Below, piece after piece: positions 1,883 through 25,647 of a stretch of DNA of 25,647 nucleotides. Source of the stretch: a virus. The notes beneath the pieces are model-generated. The model saw nothing but the letters and a program-made list of their open reading frames with translations, was not told where the DNA came from and did no database searches. The stretch lies in the IMG/VR virus record IMGVR_UViG_3300046321_000520, positions 1-25,647 of that record. One strand, 5' to 3'. Position 1 is the first letter of the stretch. Every line of letters begins with the position of its first letter. The position numbers were made by a program, and so were the translations under genes.

Positions 1883-3508
1883 ATGACACAGCAAAAGAAT
1901 AAAAGCTTAGAACAAAAATATCGAAAACTAAACGAAGTTGAACACGTTCTAACTCGACCCGGTCGATATATTGGGGCGATCACTCCTCATACTGAAAACG
2001 CATTTACATATGACCCTTTGACTAAGAGGATGTTAAAACGCGAAGTAACATATAATCCAGGCTTCATTAAGCTGTTTGATGAAGTCATTTCTAATTCAGT
2101 AGATCATTCTAAGCGTCCAGAGGGGAAAGGCCTCGATACGATTCGAGTTGATGTAAATCAGGAAGAAGGATCTATCAGCATTTTCGATAATGGTGGAATT
2201 CCCGTTATCAAGCATGCAGAATACGGCCAATGGATTCCAGAAATGATTTTTGAACTGCGTGCTGGTTCAAATTTTGATGATAGCGATGAATCGATGCTCA
2301 CGGGGCAGAATGGTGAGGGCTCGGCACTTTCATGCATCTTTTCAACAAAGTTCATCGTTGAAACATGCGACAGCAAAAACAAATTTAAAATGGTGTTTAC
2401 TGAAAATTCGCAAAGTCGGTCTTCTGCAAAAATTACTCCTGCGGCCGATTCTAAGGGTTATACGCGAATTACATATTACCCTGATTGGGTACGTTTGGGA
2501 ACCACTTTAACAGATGATAACATGGCAATGCTACAAAAGCGTGTAGCTGATGTTGCAGGTTTAAATCCCCATCTAAAAGTGTATTGGAATGGGGAACGAA
2601 TTCCGACTAAAAGTTTCAAAGATTATATCGAAATGTATATTCCTGAAGGCGAGGACTATGCGTATGATGAAACTGAACATTGGAAAATTGCAGTTGCTAG
2701 TTCTGAAGACGGATTCCAGCAGATTTCATTTGTGAACGGAACTAATACGAAATCCGGCGGGACCCATGTCATGTATACCGGAATGCAGATTTGGGAACGA
2801 ATTCGAGAGCATATAAAGAAGAAGTTCAAAACGGATATTAAACCATCCGAATTGCGTCAGCATATGACATTGTTTATTGATTGCTCTATTGTCAATCCTC
2901 GCTATTCTAGTCAAACCAAAGATGATCTAATCACAGAAGTAAAAGACTACAAAACAAGTTGGGCAGTTCCAGACAAGATGATCAGCAAAATTATCAAGTC
3001 GAGTATTATTCAGAATATTTTGGACTGGGCTGCAGCTAAGCAGCATCAAGAAGAAATGAAGGAACTTCGCAAGCTGAATAAAGATGTAGAGAAGACAAAT
3101 TATCGCCGAGTAAATAAATTTTGCGATGCACTGGAAAAGAAAGATCGATATCGTTGTAATTTGATGCTGGCGGAGGGGGATTCGGCCGCAAAAAGCTTGT
3201 TTGCAGCGCGTGGCAAAACTCCCTACATCGGAACATACCCCCTGCGAGGAAAGCTTCTTAATGTACGCCAAAAGGAGATTGCCCGCGTTCTTGGGCTTGA
3301 CAAGAAAAAAGAAGGTAAGACTGAACCTAATGAAATTCAAAAAATTCTCACTATTATTGGATTAAAAATAGGAGAAAAAGTAGAAACTGAACCAATGCCA
3401 GACGGCGAATGGGTTGAAATCGAAATTAATGGGGTGAAGAAGTTGGTAAACGAGAATGATTCTATTGAAGTGGATGGAGCACTAGTTAAAATCAGTTCGC
3501 TGTTATAA
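1883..3508 (+). CDS. 39: DNA topoisomerase II large subunit, N-terminal part (T4 gp39-like)
   Basis: A 541-residue protein with the GHKL ATPase and transducer domains and the first half of TOPRIM. Visible motifs are FDEVISNSVDHS (residues 65-76, catalytic Glu67 and Asn71), FDNGGIPV (101-108), GQNGEGSA (141-148, ATP lid), the QTK loop (344-346) that contacts ATP phosphate, and EGDSAAKSLF (431-440, TOPRIM catalytic Glu). GTYPLRGKLLNVR follows. It ends after IGLKIGEKV plus a short hydrophilic tail, before the TOPRIM DxD motif, which is on the next gene. T4 gp39 is split at the same point. With the gp60-like and gp52-like proteins it should form the phage type IIA topoisomerase used in replication. 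No ribosome site stands out; the start is the only reasonable ATG and gives a normal family N-terminus. Confidence 0.93.
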   Translation: MTQQKNKSLEQKYRKLNEVEHVLTRPGRYIGAITPHTENAFTYDPLTKRMLKREVTYNPGFIKLFDEVISNSVDHSKRPEGKGLDTIRVDVNQEEGSISIFDNGGIPVIKHAEYGQWIPEMIFELRAGSNFDDSDESMLTGQNGEGSALSCIFSTKFIVETCDSKNKFKMVFTENSQSRSSAKITPAADSKGYTRITYYPDWVRLGTTLTDDNMAMLQKRVADVAGLNPHLKVYWNGERIPTKSFKDYIEMYIPEGEDYAYDETEHWKIAVASSEDGFQQISFVNGTNTKSGGTHVMYTGMQIWERIREHIKKKFKTDIKPSELRQHMTLFIDCSIVNPRYSSQTKDDLITEVKDYKTSWAVPDKMISKIIKSSIIQNILDWAAAKQHQEEMKELRKLNKDVEKTNYRRVNKFCDALEKKDRYRCNLMLAEGDSAAKSLFAARGKTPYIGTYPLRGKLLNVRQKEIARVLGLDKKKEGKTEPNEIQKILTIIGLKIGEKVETEPMPDGEWVEIEINGVKKLVNENDSIEVDGALVKISSLL

Positions 3509-3536
3509 TAGTATTAAGAATTTTTAGGGGTAAAAT

Positions 3537-4146
3537 ATGCAAATCAAAGTTACATCACGGAATCTCAAGCCTACAGCAACACAAATGGCAGGTTATAAAC
3601 AAACTAAGGGTGTAAGTCGCTGTCGTGCACCAAAACTTAATTTTGGTAAGGTCATTTTCGCAACGGATTCCGATGTAGATGGTTAGCTTCGGCTAACCAT
3701 CTACATACTTAAAATATATTAGGATTTTTGGCGCACATATTTCAGGTCTCCTTATGAATTTGTTTGACAAATTCTGGCCAGAATTATTTGACATGGGTTT
3801 CGTTCATATCCTTAGAACCCCTGTCGTAAAAGTTACCTTAAAGGACAAAAGCGTATTAGAATTCTTTACTGAGCGAGAATTTAAAGACTGGTCAGAAACA
3901 ACCGGTTCAAAAAATAAAGGATGGTCTCATCGTTACTATAAGGGGTTAGGAACTACTAAGACTGTAGATTTTATCCCTTACATGGAAAATCCAGATAAGT
4001 ACCTGTTTCAGATCACAATGGATGATCCAGAAGATCGAGAATCTATTGACCTCGCATTTAGCGGCGATCGCGCAGATGATCGCAAAGCTTGGTTGGAAAC
4101 TCCAGCTGGAAATTTTGAAGATTTTGTTTCGCAACCAAAGAAATAA
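3537..4146 (+). CDS. 60: DNA topoisomerase large subunit, C-terminal part (T4 gp60-like), needing a 49-nt translational bypass
   Basis: ATG 3537 follows AGGGG at 3526-3530 with six-nt spacing. The first 49 codons end in KVIFATDSDVDG, the TOPRIM DxD motif, and are followed at once by TAG (3684-3686). In a different frame, GGC at 3730-3732 is followed by GCA CAT ATT (AHI), then SGLLMNLFDKFWPELFDMG and the rest of the domain to 4146. Type IIA topoisomerases carry TDxDxDG-x-HI here, so joining Gly49 (GGT 3681-3683) to Ala at 3733 restores the family sequence exactly, giving about 186 residues. The later part has HRYYKGLG, the conserved end of the TOPRIM region. The alternative, a separate start at ATG 3754, would lack the DxD aspartates and has no good ribosome site. 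No intervening homing endonuclease gene is present. The bypass is inferred, not observed. Confidence 0.88.
3673..3732 (+). promoter_or_regulatory. Translational bypass element (take-off hairpin, stop, internal SD, landing codon)
   Basis: In order: take-off Gly codon GGT 3681-3683; UAG stop 3684-3686; a perfect 15-bp stem 3673-3687 paired with 3692-3706 around a TTCG tetraloop (3688-3691), so the take-off codon and stop are inside the 5' arm; an AT-rich spacer; AGGA at 3721-3724, a Shine-Dalgarno-like site; landing codon GGC 3730-3732. The skipped stretch, counting the landing codon, is 49 nt (3684-3732). As I recall it, T4 gene 60 has GGA take-off, an adjacent UAG, a UUCG-capped hairpin, a GAG internal SD and a GGA landing codon 50 nt on. 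Here GGT and GGC are both read by the GCC-anticodon tRNA-Gly, so re-pairing is plausible. A terminator is unlikely because no T-run follows the hairpin. Confidence 0.85.
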
Positions 4147-4291: not shown

Positions 4292-5665
4292 ATGGTTGCC
4301 AAACCGAAACCCCAATCTTCTGGAATTCGTAGAATTGCTGCGAGGAATTTCGTTAACACCGCTTTTAAAGAATTTTCGCTTTATGACAACGTTCGGAGCA
4401 TTCCGAAATTGACTGATGGCTTAAAGCCAAGCCAGCGTAAAGCTATTCACGGGACCCAAGTTCGTGGTGAAAATGCCGGTTTACTTTCAGTCGAACGGCT
4501 TTCTGCACATTGTGCTGCGTCGACTGACTACCATCACGGGGTAGGGTCGATGCAATCGACTATTATCGGCTTAGCAAATAAGTATGCTGGCTCCAATAAT
4601 ATGAATCTGTTTGAACCTGAAGGCCAATTTGGTTCGCGACTCACTGCTGACCCAGCAGCTGCACGATATATCGAGACCAAGCTGACACCTTATTTCCGAA
4701 TGCTATTCCCTAAGGCAGATGATTGCATTCTCGAATACAATCAGACAGATGGTGAGAAAATTGAGCCAGTAACTTATTTGCCCCTGTTGCCTATTACATT
4801 AGTCAATGGAGCGCAAGGAACAGGTACTGGTCACGCTTGTTTGGTTATGGCTTATAACCCTAAAGAAATCGCTGCAGCGTGTCTGGCGGTCTTACAGGGC
4901 AAAAACCTGACTAACGGGGGTTTAACGCCCTGGTATAAGGGGTTTAAAGGCTCCATCGAACGCAATCAGATTAATGGTCAAGTCGTTGTCACCGGTAAAA
5001 TGGAAGTAGTAAATACTACCACTATCAAAATCAGTGAATTGCCAATCGGCGTTTATCTTGACCAGTATAAAGAACATCTTAATAAGCTTGAGGATGAGGA
5101 ATTCATTAAGGACTATGAAGATCGTTCAACTGAAGATGGTTTCGATTTTACTGTCATAGTCCCACGAACAACTTCTGCATTACCTCTTGAAGAGCTGTAC
5201 AAGAAATTTAAATTGGTTGCTCGTGACACAGAAAACTTTACGCTGTGGGGCATTGACGGGATCCTTCGACGAATGCAATATGCTGAAGAAGTTGTCAATG
5301 AATTCGTAACTTGGCGCAGTTCAATGTTTGAAATCCGTCGACAGAAATTAATCGATGTTGCCAAGGCTGATATTGCGTGGGCATCTGAACGGATTAGATT
5401 TATCAACTTCTACCTGAAGAATACTAATCTTTTCAAAAATACCGGCAAAAAAGATCTAATAGAACTTCTTATTAGTAACAAGTTTACGGAATATGAGCGG
5501 CTACTTGCCATGAGCATTTGGAATCTGACTAAAGACAAAATAAGCGAACTAGAAAAAGAGCTGCTCGGGTTTAAAGACCATTTAGCTTCACTTGAAAAAG
5601 ACACTGCTGACAAAATGTATTCACGCGAATTAAAGGCCCTTGTATCAAGCCTTGTGGACTTCTGA
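4292..5665 (+). CDS. 52: DNA topoisomerase II medium subunit (T4 gp52-like, breakage-reunion subunit)
   Basis: A 457-residue protein close in length to T4 gp52 (about 440). It contains the GyrA/ParC-type winged-helix and tower domains: [21 protein letters not shown] (N-terminal, residues 30-50), YHHG (80-83), the catalytic loop [19 protein letters not shown] with active-site Tyr126 after Arg125, and a C-terminal helical region rich in Lys/Glu that fits the coiled-coil gate. It cuts and rejoins the DNA strands while the gp39/gp60 parts bind ATP and metal. AAGGAA lies at a good distance before the ATG. There is no bacterial GyrA-type C-terminal beta-pinwheel, as expected for the phage enzyme. 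Confidence 0.93.
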
Positions 5666-12698: not shown

Positions 12699-14246
12699 AT
12701 GACATACAATCTTGATTGGGAAAGTGCCGGAACTGAAGGCATTCCTGGAAAATCTTCTATCATTGTCCCGGAGAGGACAACTGATGCAACTTCAACTTCT
12801 TTAAAGCTTACTGGCAAAGGCACCGCTAGTTATGGTAAAATTCAACAAGAGAATTTTATTAAGCTGCTTGAAAATTTCGCATCTAATACTGCGCCATCAA
12901 ACCCAACAATTGGTCAGCTTTGGTTCAGCCCTGTGGACAAAGCGCTGTATCTTTGTGTTGAAACCGCCACAGTTACCGCAGAAACAAATGTTTACTTTAC
13001 CAGTGGAGCAATAGGTTGGGTTCGAGCTTGGCAGTCTTCTGCTCTAGGCACAATTGTTTCTGATCTCCAGCAAGAGATTGCAGATTCTGCAGCAATCTTG
13101 CAACAAGCAATTGTAGACGCAGTTGCCCCCAAAGCCGATGTCAATTCTCCAGCACTCACTGGGATCCCTACGTCTCCCACACCGATTGCTACTACTGAAA
13201 CGACTCAGGTTGCAACTACTGCTTTCGTCCATAGCGTCGTTAACGGCGTTCAGATACAAGATTTGACAGCGCATAGTGGACCGACGCTTTATATAGGCCC
13301 TGAAGCCGCAGTTGACCCAATTTTCATATTTAATGGCGTTTTAACTTCTGATGTGACGCTGATATTCCCCAACACGTATAAAAAAGTTTGGACGGTTATC
13401 AATCGTACTACTGGCGGAAGTTTCAGAATGTTTTTAAAGGTGCTAATGCCAGATGGCGTTAATGCAAGTTTGACGCAGGTTGAGGTACTAAGAGATAAAG
13501 CACAGCAAGTTTTTACTTCTTGGGGAGAAATTGGTTCTGCTGTTACACATGTGCCAGGAACTTCAGAAAACGTGATCGGCGTTGTTGCTATCGCTAATGG
13601 CGGGACTGGTGCAACAGATGCAGCAACTGCGCGGGTGAATTTGGGAGTGAATGCAGATACGGTCAACTTAACTGGCGATCAGACGATAGACGGCAATAAA
13701 ACGTTTAATGGAGTAATTAAGCAAGTTGGTAATAGTGAAGCGAGAGTGCTGGTTGAAAAAACTGGAACAAATGCATCTCAAGCGTATTTGTATAATAGCG
13801 ACAATGAAATCGGGATTTATGATAATACCCACGGTAAGGTAATATCCAAAAGCAAAAACGCGCAAATTAGCACGATCATACTTGGTGCACCAGTTGAAAC
13901 TGTGTCATTATTGGGCGCACCAACTGCCCCTACGCCAAACATTGCTTCGAATGATACGACTATTGCAACTACGGCATTTGTGAAAAATGCTATAAATGCT
14001 ATAAACCACCAAGCAAACAGTTCGCCCCCCTCAAATCCTCAAGCAGGTCAAACCTGGTACGACAGTAGCACTTCATTATCGCCACAGGGAAGATTAATGC
14101 TTTACACTGTGGCTAACGTGTGGGTCCAGGTTTGGCCGTATGTTGCGGCACCAACACCTACACCAACACCAACACCTACACCAACTCCTACACCAACTCC
14201 TACACCAACTCCTACACCAACTTGGGACGGCACTGGTAAATTTTAA
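12699..14246 (+). CDS. Tail fibre/baseplate-type structural protein with a Pro-Thr C-terminal repeat
   Basis: A 515-residue protein with AGGAG before the ATG. The first ~110 residues (YNLDWESAGTEGIPGKSS, SLKLTGKG, QQENFIKLLENFAS, NPTIGQLWF) are a module seen at the N-terminus of structural proteins of many T4-like, notably marine, phages. Two copies of a tail-fibre motif follow: IPTSPTP...QVATTAFV near 150-170 and APTAPTP...IATTAFV near 410-430, the latter next to a second SNPQAGQTWYD element resembling the N-terminal one. IANGGTGATDAATARVNLGV (about 300-320) is also a typical fibre segment. Residues 485-508 are twelve Pro-Thr dipeptides, then WDGTGKF. The protein probably forms part of the host-recognition apparatus. 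Its TAA overlaps the ATG of the next gene. Confidence 0.8.
   Translation: MTYNLDWESAGTEGIPGKSSIIVPERTTDATSTSLKLTGKGTASYGKIQQENFIKLLENFASNTAPSNPTIGQLWFSPVDKALYLCVETATVTAETNVYFTSGAIGWVRAWQSSALGTIVSDLQQEIADSAAILQQAIVDAVAPKADVNSPALTGIPTSPTPIATTETTQVATTAFVHSVVNGVQIQDLTAHSGPTLYIGPEAAVDPIFIFNGVLTSDVTLIFPNTYKKVWTVINRTTGGSFRMFLKVLMPDGVNASLTQVEVLRDKAQQVFTSWGEIGSAVTHVPGTSENVIGVVAIANGGTGATDAATARVNLGVNADTVNLTGDQTIDGNKTFNGVIKQVGNSEARVLVEKTGTNASQAYLYNSDNEIGIYDNTHGKVISKSKNAQISTIILGAPVETVSLLGAPTAPTPNIASNDTTIATTAFVKNAINAINHQANSSPPSNPQAGQTWYDSSTSLSPQGRLMLYTVANVWVQVWPYVAAPTPTPTPTPTPTPTPTPTPTPTPTWDGTGKF
14151..14222 (+). repeat. Low-complexity CCA-ACx repeat encoding (Pro-Thr)12
   Basis: Twenty-four codons alternate Pro (CCA/CCT) and Thr (ACA/ACT). 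A 12-bp subunit, ACACCAACTCCT, recurs exactly in the right half. Such repeats change length easily by slippage; in a virion protein they usually form an extended linker. Confidence 0.85.
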
Positions 14247-15175: not shown

Positions 15176-15719
15176 TTGGCTGCAATACTCTAATTTGGTT
15201 CAATCGCAAAAATCCTTTTTCGGAATAAAAGACGAAGAAGTACTAAAAGAACTAATCAACAATCCAAGCGTAAATGAAACTGTAAAAAATTGCTATTTCC
15301 TAAATAACAATTTATTGTTCAGGTCCTATGGGCTCATAGATGATAATGGTGACCTTTTGAGTTCAATAAATGTGCAATTTAGCGACTCATTGCCATTTTG
15401 GATATTACGTAGAATGATAACACACGAAGAAAATAAATCTTCTGAAAATTCTTTGTATTATATGGGGGAATTGTTTACTCACGTTTTAAAAGAAACTGAA
15501 AAATTGGGGTTTTACCAGCATTACAATTTAATACCTACTAAATATAAGGCGGCCCACGAAAAAATATGGTCTAAACTGCCAGCTAGAGCCGAATATAAAC
15601 TTTTCGAAATTGAAAATGTTCCTGCAATGGCAAAACCAAAATTTTCCTTCTTCTGGGATTCTTTATACGGAAAAAGATACTATCCAATAGACACGACAAT
15701 AAGATTGAGCATAAAATGA
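15147..15719 (+). CDS. GNAT-like protein (tentative)
   Basis: A 190-residue protein overlapping the PP-loop gene by 29 bases in another frame. The order of an N-terminal helical part (LVQSQKSFFGIKDEEVLKEL), strands with a turn (LLFRSYGLIDDNGDLLSSINVQF), a helix (YMGELFTHVLKETEKLGF) and a C-terminal strand region (YKLFEIENVPAMAKPKFSFF) fits a GNAT acyltransferase fold. The acetyl-CoA loop (Q/RxxGxG/A) is not evident, so this is a weak call. It could be a catalytically different GNAT relative or an unrelated protein. The next gene begins on ATGA overlapping its stop. Confidence 0.5.
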   Translation: MKIIQLTIDNWLQYSNLVQSQKSFFGIKDEEVLKELINNPSVNETVKNCYFLNNNLLFRSYGLIDDNGDLLSSINVQFSDSLPFWILRRMITHEENKSSENSLYYMGELFTHVLKETEKLGFYQHYNLIPTKYKAAHEKIWSKLPARAEYKLFEIENVPAMAKPKFSFFWDSLYGKRYYPIDTTIRLSIK

Positions 15720-16477
15720 AAGCTATTTTCAATTTGAACCATTTTTGGAAATGGGTTCTTCCTACTAACATTATTTTTATATTTGTTGCGTTCATGGGAA
15801 GCTTTAACACTGTAGCCACTTTAATATTCCTATTCTTAATTCAATTTTCGATAGAAATAGGCATACATCGCCTTCTTGCCCATAAAGCTTTTTCTACGCC
15901 TGAATGGATTAAAAATGCGCTTATACTTATCGGAAGCCTTGGGGGGCAGGGAACAGCTTTCTTTTGGGCAGCTGTTCATAGGGGGGTTCACCACCCCTAT
16001 GCAGACCAAGAAAAGGATCCACATACACCGACAAAAGGGGTTTTGCATAGTTATTTTTTATGGCTCTTGAAAGAAAATTTAACCTCTGCATATAGAAAAG
16101 CCCCAGATTTACTAAGAGACAAATTTCTAATGAAATTGCATAATAATCAATATGTAATTTTGTACGGGTTTTCAATATTATTAATTGGGCTTGATTCTGT
16201 TTTCTCAACACGTTTTTTCGGTTCTTATATTCTAGCAGTTATTTTTTCATCACATTTAAATTATTTGGTTAATACGGTCTGTCATTTAAAGCATTTTGGG
16301 TATAGATCCTTTGAAACAAAAGATAACTCTAGAAATATCTGGACATTATCGTTTTTTACTGCTGGCCTATCTTTACATAATAACCATCATAAGGACCCAG
16401 GCAATCCAAATTTTGCAAAAAAATGGTATGAAATAGATTTGTCTTATTTAGTAATTTGCCTATTAAGAAAGAAATAA
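15716..16477 (+). CDS. Membrane fatty-acyl desaturase (acyl-CoA delta-9 type)
   Basis: A 253-residue integral membrane protein with all three His boxes of the stearoyl-CoA desaturase family: HRLLAH (51-56), HRGVHH (88-93) and HNNHH (221-225); the extra family histidine is probably in CHLKH (189-193). Membrane pairs flank them (about 14-50, 66-87, 147-188). The family uses a di-iron centre and O2 to insert a cis double bond into an acyl chain; it needs an electron donor such as ferredoxin or cytochrome b5, not encoded here. It is shorter than animal enzymes (about 350) but near the bacterial size. In this cassette it may desaturate membrane lipids or an acyl group made by the pathway; that is inference. 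Confidence 0.85.
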   Translation: MKAIFNLNHFWKWVLPTNIIFIFVAFMGSFNTVATLIFLFLIQFSIEIGIHRLLAHKAFSTPEWIKNALILIGSLGGQGTAFFWAAVHRGVHHPYADQEKDPHTPTKGVLHSYFLWLLKENLTSAYRKAPDLLRDKFLMKLHNNQYVILYGFSILLIGLDSVFSTRFFGSYILAVIFSSHLNYLVNTVCHLKHFGYRSFETKDNSRNIWTLSFFTAGLSLHNNHHKDPGNPNFAKKWYEIDLSYLVICLLRKK

Positions 16478-18265: not shown

Positions 18266-18858
18266 ACGAAACATTTTACAATAAGCGTTTGGGCGTATTA
18301 GAAGAAGAACTTATAAACGATCTTTCTTCGTATTGTCAAACAGTAGGTGTTGATAACGCGATGAAAAGAACGGAAACAGTTTTTAATAGAGACGATTGTA
18401 GATTAATACTTCCTGTAGCCAACGGAAAACCGTATGATAATATTGCGCTTTTACGGTGCGCGCCTATTTTAAAAGAATTGCAAAAATATGATGATTTAAA
18501 AGGATTGGTTCCATATAGAATAGAGTTAAGTTTTGTAAAACCCAACTCTGCAGTGTATCCCCACAGCGATAGGATTTATTTTCATTCTCTTTGCAGACGC
18601 ACTCATGTTGTGCTTAAAAGCGAGGGGAGCTATTACGCAAATATTAATGAAGATGGCACCGCAGTTGAATGCGAAATGAAACAAAATGAAGTGTGGATTA
18701 TTAACAATCGTAAAATCCACACTGCAAAAAATACTCATAATTCCGTAAGAATACATATGATTATAGATTTTACAACTCCGTCAAGTCATGAAATGCTAGT
18801 AAATGACCGGGCTTTGGCCAATAAATCATACACCTTAAAAGAAGAATTATCACTATGA
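18262..18858 (+). CDS. 2OG-Fe(II) oxygenase, Asp/Asn beta-hydroxylase-like (3 of 8)
   Basis: A 198-residue protein with the compact jelly-roll order of Asp/Asn hydroxylases: YRIELSFVKPNSAVYPHSD (iron ligands His101, Asp103), RRTHVVLKS, NEVWIINNRKIHTAKN (distal His153) and VRIHMIIDF (Arg163, cosubstrate). The family hydroxylates the beta-carbon of Asp, Asn or related side chains, free or peptide-bound. The ATG overlaps the previous stop (ATGA) and the next gene does the same. Confidence 0.8.
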   Translation: MNETFYNKRLGVLEEELINDLSSYCQTVGVDNAMKRTETVFNRDDCRLILPVANGKPYDNIALLRCAPILKELQKYDDLKGLVPYRIELSFVKPNSAVYPHSDRIYFHSLCRRTHVVLKSEGSYYANINEDGTAVECEMKQNEVWIINNRKIHTAKNTHNSVRIHMIIDFTTPSSHEMLVNDRALANKSYTLKEELSL

Positions 18859-19418
18859 TAGAATTAAAGCCCTTAAAACTGGTTGCGCAATTAGACAATG
18901 ATTTAGTTGACGCTGCTTTATCAGAAGTCAAAGCGTTAACAGAATCTGATTGGAAAATATCTAAACTTTCTATATTAAACGATAGGAGAAAATACATCAG
19001 CATTACGGATTCTCCACTATGGGTGTCCACTCCTTATAAAAGCGGCGCGTCAAGTGATTCAGTTGGAACATTTCAATTTTGCAAAATATTGACTAGGCTC
19101 CCAAATGTCGAACAAATCATTTTTAAAATAAAGGATCTGTATGGCGCTAAACACTTTGGACAAGTTTATCTTTCAAAGATGGAATTGGGTTCAATAGTTC
19201 ACCCGCACATAGACCGGGGACCATATTATTTAGCTCATCATCGAATTCAAATAGCGCTAAATGGATCAGATTCAAATGCTGATTTTTGTGTTGGCGGAGA
19301 AATTGTAAATATGAAAACGGGAGAATGCTGGTGTTTTGATAATCAAAAAACGCACAGCGTTCAAAATAAAGATAGCACGATTAGGTATTCAATAGTTTGC
19401 GATGTGAGCGAAATATGA
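18855..19418 (+). CDS. 2OG-Fe(II) oxygenase, Asp/Asn beta-hydroxylase-like (4 of 8), tandem paralogue A
   Basis: A 187-residue protein with HPHID (iron ligands His118, Asp120), HHRIQIALN, GECWCFDNQKTHSVQN (His167) and IRYSIVCDV (Arg177). It is a close paralogue of the next gene: SDWKISK...SPLW against SDWRVAN...SSVW, and FGQVYLSKME...PHIDRGPYYLAHHRIQIAL against IGQIYLSIMK...PHLDRGEYYSHHHRLQIGL. Both keep all the predicted iron and 2-oxoglutarate ligands, so both are probably active. Confidence 0.8.
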   Translation: MIELKPLKLVAQLDNDLVDAALSEVKALTESDWKISKLSILNDRRKYISITDSPLWVSTPYKSGASSDSVGTFQFCKILTRLPNVEQIIFKIKDLYGAKHFGQVYLSKMELGSIVHPHIDRGPYYLAHHRIQIALNGSDSNADFCVGGEIVNMKTGECWCFDNQKTHSVQNKDSTIRYSIVCDVSEI

Positions 19419-19987: not shown

Positions 19988-21523
19988 AATGGCCCCCAAA
20001 AATGGCATCATTTTTAACGATTGCATAGAACTATCTGGCGTAATTAGGCACAGAACAGCTGGAGCCTACAGAATAGCTTCCGAATTTAGAAAACTTGGAA
20101 TCGAGATTCAGGTAATAGAAGGTTGGAACATATTAACATTAGAAAATACGGATCCTGTTAAGTTATTATTGGATAAGTTCATGAATGAAAACACTATGTT
20201 TGTCGGTTTTTCATCCACGTTTTTTCTAATTCCTATAAGATTTATTTTAATCGTGCTGAGAAAAATAATACTAGAAATTTAAAGTCTTCTCATGTGATAT
20301 CAGACAACCCTTTCTATTTACCATGGAATCAGCTGATTGATCTTAAACGATATGTAAAAACTAAAAAAACGGATTGCGACTTTATTATCGGCGGGGCGCA
20401 GGCAGATAAATCAGATGGCCATATATCTGATTATAAATTTTTAGGGTATTCAGAAACTCAGGTAGCTGATTACCTAAAATATAAAGACAAAAAAAATCCT
20501 TTTTGGATGCCGAAATTAGAAAATGGTCAAAGAATAGTGAACAACAACCCTAAAGCCGACGGTTTTGATTTTTGCTCATCTATTATTAAATATGAAACGA
20601 GTGACTGTATTCAACCAGGGGAAGTGCTTCCTATTGAAGTGAGCAGGGGATGTATTTTTAAATGCAAATTTTGTGCGTTCCCGTTAAATGGAAAATCTAA
20701 AAACGACTATTTAAAAAAACCTGATGTTTTATATTCAGAGCTCATGGAAAATTATGAAAAATGGGGAATAACGAAATATGTAATTTCTGATGACACTTTT
20801 AATGATTCAACCAAAAAATTGGAAACGCTTTTAAAAGTTGTTGGAAAACTGCCATTTGACTTTAATTTTGCTTCTTACGCCAGGTTAGATTTAATAGGGG
20901 CTCATAACGAACAAATACAACTTATAAAAGACTTGGGCTGCGTGTCAATAATATTTGGAATGGAAACATTAAACCAAAAAGCGGCGGCTTGTATAGGAAA
21001 AGGCGGAAACATCGAAAAACATATTGAAACACTTTATAAATGCAGAGAGTCCTGGGGGGATAGTGTTTATACAATGAGCGGCTTTATTTTAGGGCTTCCG
21101 TACGACACATACGAAACAATGGAGGCTTGGGTACAAAGAGTGGTTGATTTTAATTTTCCTCTCCACACCGTATCCTTTAATGAATTGGGTTTACGTAGTG
21201 GGGGAGAAGCGATCAACAAATCTGAATTTGAAATAAATTCGATAAAATACGGGTATGAAATTCTGCCAGACGGTAATTGGAAAAACGAATTATACGGCAC
21301 CTCTCAAAAAGGATGTAATGATCTTCATAAAGAAGTAAATTCATACATGAAAAGCATAGGCAGATCATTTGATATTGCTTTCAGCATCCCGTACCTAAAT
21401 ACTTTAGGGTATTCTAATAAAAAAATCATAGCTAACAAAAACTTTTTAAATTACCATCTTCTGTCTTATCATATGAACGCTAAGTACAATACATATTTTA
21501 AATCTTTGGTTTCGCATGGCTGA
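19971..21523 (+). CDS. Radical SAM enzyme with B12-binding-like N-terminus, interrupted by a -1-base frameshift
   Basis: Two frames make one protein of about 517 residues. The first, from ATG 19971 (or 19989), carries DCIELSGVIRHRTAGAYRIA and TMFVGFSSTFF and stops at 20282. The second frame is open from the same point: after adding one T to the TTTTTT run at 20220-20225 it reads SNSYKIYFNRAEKN and on through VISDNPFYLPWNQ to 21523. The second part has a likely cofactor-domain strand (CDFIIGGAQADKSDG), then the radical SAM cluster motif RGCIFKCKFC (CxxxCxxC, Cys at 120, 124 and 127 of the 20294 frame) and typical barrel strands (SIIFGMETLN, SGFILGLPYDT). The N-terminus resembles B12-binding domains but no DxHxxG motif is seen. 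Methylation or C-C bond chemistry on the pathway product is possible. Confidence 0.75.
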
Positions 21524-22022
21524 TAATTTCCTGAACATTTTGGGCGCCGTATACTTTAGGGATGATATTCCTCACGTCCCTAGATACTTTTTGAGCGATA
21601 AAAATTATTGTGCCCATGCATTAGTCCTATTTCATTTTTTGGATCCAAACTCGAACAGTTTAGCTCTAGAGTATGAAAAATTTTGCAAATCGCTAATTCC
21701 AGAAAATCATAAAATAAAAGAATCCTTTGTCGTTAGTGCGACAAATCCAGAACTTCATAATTCCACATTTTACCCAAACAATTTATTAGATGGGATTTGC
21801 AACAGAACATTGTTCTTTTTATCTGGTGAGGGGGAATTAACGATAGGGCAACAAAAATACATTATTTCTGAAGGTGGAACTATAAATCTTACCAAAGAAC
21901 AAACTGCCTTATTGCACACGATAAATATAAAAAAATCTGTAAAAAGCATAGTAATCGTCCATGATGAAACAGATATCTCTCCATGGAAACTGATTATAAA
22001 AAATAACAAGGGGGCTAAATGA
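21516..22022 (+). CDS. Cupin-like protein (tentative)
   Basis: A 168-residue protein overlapping the radical SAM gene by eight bases. Residues 95-150 (TLFFLSGEGELTIGQQKYIISEGG, TALLHTINIKKSVKSIVIVHD) alternate strand-forming residues with Gly turns as in a cupin barrel, but the full set of metal-binding histidines is not clear. Alternatively it is a degenerate member of the same beta-helix superfamily as the neighbouring oxygenases. The N-terminal 90 residues are not recognised. The next ATG overlaps its stop region (ATGA at 22019). Confidence 0.45.
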   Translation: MADNFLNILGAVYFRDDIPHVPRYFLSDKNYCAHALVLFHFLDPNSNSLALEYEKFCKSLIPENHKIKESFVVSATNPELHNSTFYPNNLLDGICNRTLFFLSGEGELTIGQQKYIISEGGTINLTKEQTALLHTINIKKSVKSIVIVHDETDISPWKLIIKNNKGAK

Positions 22023-23623
22023 TATTTAGCGGAAAAAATTCTCATAATGGTAGTTACGCATTAATAGATGAAACCAGTAACAAATTAATAGGCCTGTTTG
22101 AATCTGAAAAAAATAATAATTTGAGATACACAAACTTATCTCCAATTACATTTGTTGAAACTGCAAAACATTGTAAAAAATTCCCTAATATATTTTGTAT
22201 TTCGGGATGGCATTATGAAGACACCAAAACAGAGGGGCTTGGATACAGAGTATCAAATAATTCCGATATTTTAAATACTAATTACAGCATCACTGACGTC
22301 GAAATGTTTGGAAATAACGTAAAGCTGTTTCAATCAACTCATGAACTATCCCATATTATGCAAGCATATGGAATGTCCCCTTACGAAAATGGGCAAAGGG
22401 CGTATTGCCTGGTTTATGAGGGAGCTATAAGCAATTTTTACTATATAACCGAAAATTTGAACATTGTCAAGTGCGATGTAAATATAAATGCAATTGGAAC
22501 TCTTTACTCCGCTCTTTACAACACCGTAAAGTTTAAAAAGCCATCCATAATAGACAATGGAGGGGCCGGTAAACTGATGGCCCTTATATCATTTGCAGAT
22601 TTATCCAAACTGGATAAATCTTTAATAGAAAAATATAAAAACTCTATTAAATTAATGATACGCCAATTCGTGATAAAAAGAAAAACTAGTGAGCAAGTAC
22701 AATTCGTTTTAAATGAGCTAAATCATATTGGAATTCTACCGCTAAAAGTAACTGATCAACTTTTTTGCGATTTTGCAAAACTGTTTTCTGATATGATAAT
22801 AGAACATATTATCACTGAAATCAGGCCCTACGTAAAACAAAATATTCCGCTGCTTATTTCTGGGGGCTGCGGGTTAAATTGCGATTGGAATACAGCATTA
22901 AGAGAAACTAAATTGTTCTCTGATGTTTTTGTGGCTCCATGCACAGACGACTCCGGATCATCTATCGGCACTGCTATTGAGGCGCAGTATAGAATAACAG
23001 GGTCTGCTAAAATAAAATGGGATGTTTATGCTGGAGAAGCCCCATTTTACGATAATATTGATGAAAATTCTATAACAAAGCGCGACTATAATAGTAAATT
23101 AATAGCTAAGCTTTTATTTGATGGGGAAATAATCCCCGTTGTTCAAGGTAGAGCGGAGATAGGTCCGAGAGCTCTCGGAAATAGATCTATACTTGCGTCG
23201 CCATTAAATGCTGACATTAAAAATAAACTAAACACTATCAAACAGAGGGAATCTTACCGTCCGGTTGCCCCAATGGTTTTACAGGAAGATGCAAGTTTGC
23301 ACTTTGACGTGCCAACAGGATACGAATCGCCATATATGCTGTTCTTTGAAAAATTAAAAACTGACAAGCTTCCTGGCGTAACTCATATAGATAACAGCGC
23401 CAGGATTCAAACCGTCACGAAAACTCAAAATGAAAAAATTTATTTTTTATTAAAAGATTTTAAAGAACTATCTGGGTACGGCGTTCTTTGTAATACATCG
23501 TTGAACTTTAATGGGCGCGGTTTTATAAATACCCTCTCTGATTTATTCAACTTCTGCAAAACAAATAACTTAAAATGGTTTGTTTTTGGGGACTTCCTAT
23601 ACGAGGTGAAATATGATAGTTAG
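22019..23623 (+). CDS. Carbamoyltransferase (NodU/CmcH/TobZ family)
   Basis: A 534-residue protein with the two domains of the family. The N-terminal Kae1-like part has STHELSHIMQAYGMSP (His108, His112, metal site) and GGCGLNCDWN near 285-295. The C-terminal YrdC-like part has GRAEIGPRALGNRSILASP, YRPVAPMVL, HIDNSARIQTV and LCNTSLNFNGRGF, all family hallmarks. These enzymes move a carbamoyl group from carbamoyl phosphate, through a carbamoyl-adenylate, to a hydroxyl of a sugar or small molecule. The usual DGxGE after the first His pair is replaced by YEGA. Carbamoyltransferase genes are known in T4-like cyanophages with unknown role. Here the acceptor could be a hydroxyl made by one of the oxygenases, which is inference. 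Confidence 0.9.
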   Translation: MIFSGKNSHNGSYALIDETSNKLIGLFESEKNNNLRYTNLSPITFVETAKHCKKFPNIFCISGWHYEDTKTEGLGYRVSNNSDILNTNYSITDVEMFGNNVKLFQSTHELSHIMQAYGMSPYENGQRAYCLVYEGAISNFYYITENLNIVKCDVNINAIGTLYSALYNTVKFKKPSIIDNGGAGKLMALISFADLSKLDKSLIEKYKNSIKLMIRQFVIKRKTSEQVQFVLNELNHIGILPLKVTDQLFCDFAKLFSDMIIEHIITEIRPYVKQNIPLLISGGCGLNCDWNTALRETKLFSDVFVAPCTDDSGSSIGTAIEAQYRITGSAKIKWDVYAGEAPFYDNIDENSITKRDYNSKLIAKLLFDGEIIPVVQGRAEIGPRALGNRSILASPLNADIKNKLNTIKQRESYRPVAPMVLQEDASLHFDVPTGYESPYMLFFEKLKTDKLPGVTHIDNSARIQTVTKTQNEKIYFLLKDFKELSGYGVLCNTSLNFNGRGFINTLSDLFNFCKTNNLKWFVFGDFLYEVKYDS

Positions 23624-24437
23624 CAAATTTTTACATCAGCATAAGTTTAAGCATAATCACGATTTCCAAAGTTTTTTGACTCAACAGCCGTCATTTATAA
23701 AAATACTTGATGAAGTAGAAATCTCTTCTGAAAAAGAGCGTATTAAAAAATTCTTATTAAATTATGATTTTGCTAATTCTAAAGATATTTGTAATGAAAA
23801 AGCTTTTACTAGTACGATAAGAATCATACCGGCTATTGAAGAAATAGTCGGAAATTTAGATAGAAACGCTCCATATAGTGATGCCGGTTTCGAATTTGAT
23901 GAAGAATTGTTGGCTTCAATAAGATCAATAATAAGCAAATTTATTGTTTTGTTTGAATCATCAACAGGCGAAAAATGGAAGGGTTCTTCTGTATGCCTAT
24001 CTGTTTTGGGTCCCGGAGAAGTGCTAAGGCCACATGTCGATGGCTACGTGGCCCATAAATGGGCAGAAAAAATTCACATACCGATAATCAGTAACGAATA
24101 TTGCTCAAACACTAAAACTGACATCAATTTCCAGATCCATGAATTTGATAACCTCGATGTTGATAGTAATTATATAATTAACAACATGGATCCACATTCA
24201 GCGATAAATTTCGGAAAAGAATATAGAACGCATCTGATTTTTGATCTTCTCCCCATAAATTATTTGAAGACCATAAGGAGTCAGCTTCCTAACAATAGCG
24301 ATAATATATATAGGATACAATCCGAGTGTGCAAAACGGGGAAACGCTGTTTTTCATAAAGCATTAGATAAAGCATTTGTTGATAAAGATGATTACAACTC
24401 CATAAGAAGCTTCTATAAGAAAATCCTGTATGAATAA
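23613..24437 (+). CDS. Probable 2OG-Fe(II) oxygenase, Asp/Asn beta-hydroxylase-like (6 of 8)
   Basis: A 274-residue protein overlapping the carbamoyltransferase by 11 bases. The iron ligands are likely His141 and Asp143 (RPHVDGYVAHKWAEKIHIPI) and His195 (NNMDPHSAINFG), with Arg205 (YRTHLIFDLLP). VCLSVLGPGEVLRPHVD is the typical lead-in of the family. About 110 helical N-terminal residues and 60 C-terminal residues are extra compared with oxygenases 3-5. Confidence 0.7.
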   Translation: MIVSKFLHQHKFKHNHDFQSFLTQQPSFIKILDEVEISSEKERIKKFLLNYDFANSKDICNEKAFTSTIRIIPAIEEIVGNLDRNAPYSDAGFEFDEELLASIRSIISKFIVLFESSTGEKWKGSSVCLSVLGPGEVLRPHVDGYVAHKWAEKIHIPIISNEYCSNTKTDINFQIHEFDNLDVDSNYIINNMDPHSAINFGKEYRTHLIFDLLPINYLKTIRSQLPNNSDNIYRIQSECAKRGNAVFHKALDKAFVDKDDYNSIRSFYKKILYE

Positions 24438-25090: not shown

Positions 25091-25647
25091 ATGATTAAAA
25101 GTCACCTAAATATTCAAACTTTTACTATTTCGCAATGTGAAACTATTATCAATGCTATTAAGGGATTTGATAAATCAAAATCAACAGTTTACAATTTAGG
25201 AAACTCACAAGCTTTCAGGACTTCAGAAAATATATACGTGCCGCCCGAAGTTTACAAAAGCATAGAAGAACGGATTGATTTTTGTGTTAAATGGCATACA
25301 CAAAATTTATTCTCATTAAAAAATGTAGAACCGATTCAATTTCTAAAATACGATGAAAGTAATAGTTCTTATTTTAGGATACACACGGATTCGGAGTTTA
25401 TAGACGCAAGTGGGACACTTATAAAATCCGCGCCATGGAGATTTATAACAACCCTTACCTATTTAAATGTTGAGTATGAAGGCGGGGAATTAGTGCTTCA
25501 TTTCGAAAAAGATGAAATGGGGAACCCGTTAAAAATTAAACCTGCGATTGGTTCAACTATAATTTTCCATTCAAATATAAGCTATCCACATGAAGTTCTG
25601 CCTGTCACAAAAGGAGCAAGATACAGCGTAGTAAAATGGTACGGTCT
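25091..25647 (+). CDS. 2OG-Fe(II) oxygenase, prolyl-4-hydroxylase-like, partial (8 of 8)
   Basis: The frame is open from ATG 25091, one base after the previous stop, to the window edge (185 codons), with little missing. It has the prolyl 4-hydroxylase core: YFRIHTDSEF (His98, Asp100), WRFITTLTYLNVEYEGGELVL (about 116-136), KPAIGSTIIFHSNISYPHEVLPV (distal His167) and GARYSVVKWYG (Arg177). The P4Hc family hydroxylates prolyl residues in peptides or other substrates. Of the eight oxygenases this is the clearest prolyl-hydroxylase type. Confidence 0.8.
   Translation, partial: MIKSHLNIQTFTISQCETIINAIKGFDKSKSTVYNLGNSQAFRTSENIYVPPEVYKSIEERIDFCVKWHTQNLFSLKNVEPIQFLKYDESNSSYFRIHTDSEFIDASGTLIKSAPWRFITTLTYLNVEYEGGELVLHFEKDEMGNPLKIKPAIGSTIIFHSNISYPHEVLPVTKGARYSVVKWYG

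Follow-up and report, generated by a model that had tools for sequence, protein, structure and literature searches.

A putative nuclease-free relative of the T4 gene 60 translational bypass element in the split topoisomerase II gene of an uncultured phage

The DNA analyzed here (25,647 nucleotides, hereafter the window) is a single 25.6-kb metagenomic contig of an uncultured phage, in which the large subunit of topoisomerase II is split in the manner of T4, a gene 39 (1883-3508) being followed by a gene 60 that consists of two open reading frames, ORF1 (3537-3686) and ORF2 (3733-4146). ORF1 comprises 49 codons and ends with GGT-UAG (3681-3686), whereas ORF2 is open in another frame up to 4146. 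The features of the locus, together with some genes located elsewhere in the window, are collected in Table 1.

Table 1. Features of the window, named according to the predicted bypass
Feature	Position	Strand	Basis
Gene 39-like native part (ATPase, transducer, EGDSA)	1883-3382	+	phrog_543 E 3e-129; DNA_gyraseB PF00204
Foreign gene 39 C-terminal tail, 41 aa + stop, 5' part of cassette	3383-3508	+	homologous to T4 gp39 tail
28-nt spacer with AGGGG ribosome-binding site (3526-3530)	3509-3536	+	sequence
Gene 60 leader peptide, codons 1-32, foreign, Tyr20	3537-3632	+	Tyr invariant in 10/10 aligned leaders
Native end of ORF1, ...TDSDVDG	3633-3683	+	71-76% identical to L007 and L003
Take-off hairpin, UUCG loop (3688-3691), enclosing take-off codon	3673-3706	+	15 perfect pairs, stem 3673-3687 / 3692-3706
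Take-off codon GGT (Gly49)	3681-3683	+	sequence
UAG stop immediately 3' of take-off	3684-3686	+	sequence
Coding gap, 49 nt including landing codon	3684-3732	+	resume-codon alignment
TAA in ORF2's own frame, within gap	3694-3696	+	sequence
SD-like AGGA; AGG 6 nt upstream of landing codon	3721-3724	+	cf. GAG at 6 nt in T4
Landing codon GGC	3730-3732	+	sequence
ORF2, remaining TOPRIM + TOPRIM_C domain	3733-4146	+	PF16898 E 5e-26; third-position-biased divergence
Gene 52-like topoisomerase II medium subunit, intact	4292-5665	+	PF00521 E 2e-84; phrog_551
Fatty acid desaturase	15716-16477
Asp/Asn beta-hydroxylase-like	18855-19418, 23613-24437
Radical SAM	20294-21523
Carbamoyltransferase	22019-23623
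2OG-Fe(II) oxygenase	25091-25645

The original prediction had proposed a GGT take-off codon followed by UAG, a 15-bp hairpin capped by UUCG, an AGGA and a GGC landing codon at the two sides of a 49-nt gap, and each of these elements is present exactly where it had been placed. The segment 3669-3732 folds with -25.4 kcal/mol (z = -6.1), a stability equaled by none of 200 shuffled sequences, and the UUCG hairpin occurs only once in the window and in 0 of 100 shuffles. An intrinsic terminator was rejected as an identity for this hairpin, the U run being missing, as was an Rfam family for the gap, which gave no match besides a 14-bit chance hit. The gap also contains a second frame-0 stop (TAG 3720-3722). 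Since the TAA closes the frame of ORF2, a single frameshift at the take-off site cannot yield the protein and, since the second TAG closes frame 0, neither can readthrough of the UAG; both explanations were therefore rejected and, with stops in both escape frames, the protein could be restored by a jump only.

Joining ORF1 to ORF2 gives TDSDVDG-AHISGLLMNLF, which is ungapped over the junction when aligned with human TOP2A (E 7.5e-28) as well as with uninterrupted phage relatives, and maintains the 14-residue spacing to WPEL found in the latter; the tryptic junction peptide predicted for the joined gp60 is VIFATDSDVDGAHISGLLMNLFDK. At the amino acid level the identity between the window and the uninterrupted L007 is 72% for ORF2 and 70% for the native part of gene 39, and the ORF2 differences at codon positions 1/2/3 amount to 0.23/0.18/0.71; being as conserved as gene 39 and changed mostly at third positions, ORF2 looks translated and constrained. 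These data bear on the view that the topoisomerase, its gene having been split twice by cassette insertion, was broken by the insertion and that ORF2 is a mere remnant, a view rendered very improbable by an intact ORF2 that has diverged mostly at third positions and not faster than gene 39, by an intact gene 52 and by the persistence of the same organization in many phages. It is also unlikely that the enzyme is made in three pieces, with ORF1 stopping at UAG and ORF2 being re-initiated, with no hop, at ATG 3754; this ATG stands 7 nt after an AGG (TCAGGTCTCCTTATG) and phage enzymes that run in pieces are known (PMC2988022), but re-initiation at this site would drop the AHISGLL segment adjoining the catalytic DxD and would leave unexplained the match of the pre-resume codon to the take-off codon, and the ATG is missing in the same stretch of T4, S16, the Proteus phage, L169 and L170. 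The most economical account is that of a working three-gene topoisomerase, the gp60 of which would be produced by hopping.

Compared with the uninterrupted relatives, 3383-3508, 3537-3632 and the gap are additions, as they are in T4. The gp39 of the window ends with PMPDGEWVEIEINGVKKLVNENDSIEVDGALVKISSLL at the same point as in T4 (record NC_000866), after GEKV (GEKA in T4, the foreign tail of which is EKEDGEWFTFELNGDTIIVNENDEVQINGKWITVGEL), whereas the uninterrupted L003 reads straight on at this position (IIGLRIGEKVNSLSELRFGKVAFATDADVDGSHI). The tail is homologous also to those of other split gp39s and is missing in the uninterrupted relatives; its mean score against six T4-like tails is 76.5, while 1000 shuffles reach 38 at most, and a tblastn search with the tail sequence leads to the split gp39s of T4-like phages. 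Because the tail is shared and the split and hop positions are identical, these comparisons indicate common descent of the cassette, the window and T4 versions apparently sharing their ancestry.

In the leader peptide, Tyr20 is located 29 residues before the take-off Gly, at the place of KKYK in T4, and a Tyr 28-31 residues before take-off is the sole invariant leader residue in the 10 sequences; the window has GYK instead of KKYK, the lysine pair not being conserved. The T4 bypass needs KKYK in the nascent peptide (PMC5009743, PMC11194080), its replacement lowering bypassing to <10% (PMC11194080). By shuffle test, the similarity of the window leader to the T4-group leaders is weak (p 0.047) and that to the L168-L170 leaders is good (p 0.001). 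Bypassing in T4 is helped by a 5' stem-loop that precedes the take-off hairpin; folding did not reveal a convincing T4-like counterpart before the window hairpin, the candidate 5' stem consisting of 7 bp located ~25 nt upstream with z +0.7.

The gene-60-type nature proposed at the outset is supported by the split point, by the foreign gene 39 tail and by the gap position, which at the Gly codon of TDxDxDG is the same as in T4. Indeed, T4 gene 60 (arranged as 39 / mobA / 60.1 / 60) and the window have in common the split topoisomerase, the homologous gene 39 tail, a foreign leader with a Tyr ~30 residues before take-off, the UAG, a UUCG hairpin over the take-off codon, a matched landing codon preceded at 6 nt by a purine triplet, and a gap of ~50 nt. 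On the other hand, the gap is 49 instead of 50 nt long, the stem has 15 instead of 10 bp and is more stable, the leader is diverged, the enzyme belongs to a distant lineage, and mobA is missing, whereas in T4 the 39-60 spacer measures 787 nt and contains mobA and 60.1. The codon pair, GGT/GGC, does differ from the GGA/GGA of T4, as had been pointed out, but is not peculiar to the window, being shared by Salmonella phage S16 and by the IMG/VR contig L168. The bypass is reportedly the subject of a paper by Bonocora et al. 2011 (PNAS; cited in PMC10236363).

The anatomy of the gap, the gene 39 tail homology, the conserved parts, the codon matching and the conserved ORF2 all support the premise, to which we assign on sequence grounds a probability of about 0.87, that the 49 nt represent a programmed translational bypass element, which is homologous to its counterpart in T4 gene 60 and belongs to a cassette by which the topoisomerase gene was split; the element is best read as a functional representative of the T4 gene-60 bypass family that lacks a nuclease. 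For the window gap we infer hopping itself and the stalling steps, the latter known from T4. Ribosomes would translate 49 codons and stall, without release, at the GGT preceding UAG, held by the leader peptide inside the exit tunnel and, at the A site, by the UUCG hairpin; the peptidyl-tRNA-Gly would then detach and the ribosome would slide 49 nt and re-pair at GGC, aided by the AGG 6 nt upstream, after which translation would go on at GCA to yield a single 186-aa gp60, joining gp39 and gp52. The window lacks the homing endonuclease by which the cassette would have been spread, and the gap may have been kept as a tolerated or protective scar. Removal of the 49 nt from the RNA before translation, either as a degenerate intron or by hairpin excision, deserves very little credence; the T4 gap has been suggested to be linked to a degenerate group I intron (PMC5009743), but the window gap has no Rfam intron match beyond the chance hit and is too short for a self-splicing intron, ribosomes are known to bypass the homologous T4 gap (PMC3014915) and splicing offers no ground for tRNA codon matching.

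Related loci were gathered starting from the gene 39 tail, the T4 gap and hairpin patterns; the patterns being designed around UAG and UUCG hairpins, variants of other kinds will have escaped them. Bypass-type gene 60 loci were found in Tequatrovirus, Gelderlandvirus (S16, UoN_LG358_1, SEA1), Bragavirus (Pm5461, PM2), Shewanella phage Thanatos-1, Lazarusvirus (AC4, KARL-1, fHyAci03), Tulanevirus (Aes012, 60AhydR15PP, AS-gz) and four uncultured contigs (L154, L168, L169/L196, L170/L197); related elements thus extend to phages of Salmonella, Proteus, Shewanella, Acinetobacter and Aeromonas as well as to large uncultured phages. The suggested inspection of the topoisomerase genes of related phages has yielded uninterrupted genes in the nearest relatives (L003-L011, up to 77% identical in the case of L006) and diverged elements in several others. 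The pattern ACNGAYDCNGAYNNNGAYGGNTAG has 13 loci, those in topoisomerase genes being only the Proteus phage and L154, and a tightened hairpin pattern fell within topoisomerase genes in 4 of 15 cases in viral contigs and in none of 33 matches in 257 Gb of cellular genomes. In viral contigs, the loose pattern GATGGNTAGN{0,8}CTTCGG gave no topoisomerase case in the checked loci among the matches listed, the GACGG and Asp-take-off (GATTAG) patterns gave nothing new, and the gene 39 tail led to L169's contig only.

Natural bypass cases are still named as T4 gene 60 and Magnusiomyces mitochondria (PMC11194080, 2024), and the original prediction likewise regarded them as few outside T4 and yeast mitochondria; this view needs correction in light of the diverged copies in other phages, two of which (GenBank JN377895 and MH460829) are already annotated as predicted bypasses. 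A description of a bypass family across phages was not found in the literature, the paper on fHyAci03 itself making no mention of it. The Magnusiomyces byp elements, for which homology is not claimed, are likewise non-coding blocks skipped by the ribosome and are seemingly independent of mRNA context (PMC5009743). The other predicted bypasses of Straboviridae (S16, Pm5461, KARL-1, fHyAci03, Aes012) share the cassette with the window but mostly retain an HNH-type endonuclease gene or its relic, and the Acinetobacter and Aeromonas elements differ by an Asp take-off and, in Aeromonas, by a gap of 17 nt. L168, L169 (L196) and L170 (L197) share with the window the short hairpin (TAGC-UUCG-GCTA), matched Gly codons and homologous tails and leaders; L168, like the window, is without nuclease, whereas L169 and L170 differ from it by their codons and by a phrog_22677 nuclease. 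Although the window is a lone 25.6-kb metagenomic contig, with no second copy found among the records searched, an assembly or sequencing artefact has a negligible probability, given that diverged versions exist on independent contigs and that error is not a plausible source of matched codons, a cassette tail and a perfect 15-bp hairpin located exactly as in T4.

To compare the elements, the resume codon was set by the WPEL spacing of uninterrupted enzymes, with no landing codon assumed, except in L170, which is one residue short and for which the DG-x-HI motif was used. The resulting take-off/landing pairs are GGT/GGC (window, S16, L168), GGT/GGT (Thanatos-1, L154), GGA/GGA (T4, L169), GGG/GGA (Pm5461), GGG/GGG (L170), GAT/GAC (AC4) and GAC/GAC (Aes012). 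The two codons match at the isoacceptor level in all 11 distinct elements, 10 of them set by WPEL spacing and the eleventh, L170, by DG-x-HI (p ~2e-4 by shuffling, not corrected for shared ancestry), and both Gly classes are found inside each of the two main groups. Furthermore, the third base of the take-off codon pairs across the hairpin (T-A, A-T or G-C) in 9/9 elements (p 0.001, ancestry not corrected) and a purine triplet lies 5-6 nt upstream of the landing codon in 9/9. In L169, L170 and Aes012 the ORF2 frame is not closed within the gap, so that the exclusion of frameshifting is weaker there than in the window.

The diverged relatives would turn a mechanism with a single example into a family in which necessary and incidental parts can be separated by comparison: kept are the tRNA-class codon match, the take-off codon within the hairpin, the purine triplet at 5-6 nt and the Tyr at about -29; variable are the gap length (17-52), the frame, the amino acid (Gly or Asp) and the nuclease. 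The origin of the hop within a homing cassette also becomes testable across phages. Acinetobacter phages L138 and L139 (3943-4200) have an Asp take-off (GAT/GAC) with 43 nt, and L142 (3343-3500) one (GAC/GAC) with 17 nt; such elements would imply hopping with peptidyl-tRNA-Asp. In L154 (6640-7045), a 27-nt in-frame gap with GGT/GGT contains a CCCC-GAAA-GGGG hairpin after TDADTDG-UAG, possibly representing a short hop or a stop readthrough.

In a maximum-likelihood tree of 25 large subunits the window groups with uninterrupted relatives encoded on contigs of uncultured phages, many of these contigs being very large, and is distant from the T4 clade; the presence of the gap entails five state changes, all forced by well-supported branches, which would fit repeated transfer, repeated loss, or both alike. 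The T4-like members carry an HNH-type nuclease (phrog_655), while L169, L170 and L154 carry one of another family, phrog_22677 (mutual E 3e-28 and 4e-32), its gene being located between 39 and 60 in L169 and L170; no nuclease is present in L168 or in the window, where just the 28-nt spacer separates 39 from 60. As different nucleases or none are found, the cassette frame appears independent of the nuclease carried, and the lack of a 39/60 nuclease in the window, read as a loss, would make the latter a bypass-family member and not an active mobile cassette. We are slightly inclined to believe that the T4 bypass belongs, as one branch, to a mobile cassette for recoding that is widespread and consists of a gene 39 tail, an interchangeable nuclease, a stalling leader and the hop; this cassette would have entered the same active-site codon of topoisomerases several times in unrelated phage lineages, with at least two nuclease families and Gly or Asp hops of 17-52 nt; the nuclease-free form of the window would have been kept as a guard against site cleavage or for control of topoisomerase output.

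Campylobacter phages CP220 and F379 (L159 897-2408, L160 667-2178) have a homologous cassette-type gp39 tail, gene 60 being detected in neither record. In contig G002 (291,687 nt; L196 1091-4519) an intein-like block with its own ORF interrupts the EGDSA motif of gp39, so that one topoisomerase gene contains two mobile elements, this block and a gene 39/60 cassette bearing a second nuclease.

Elsewhere in the window, the tail-fibre-like protein (12699-14246) has a long PTPTPT repeat at its end (13900-14246), and the segment 15716-25645 contains a run of small-molecule enzyme genes, unusual in a phage, which looks like a biosynthetic or modification cluster.
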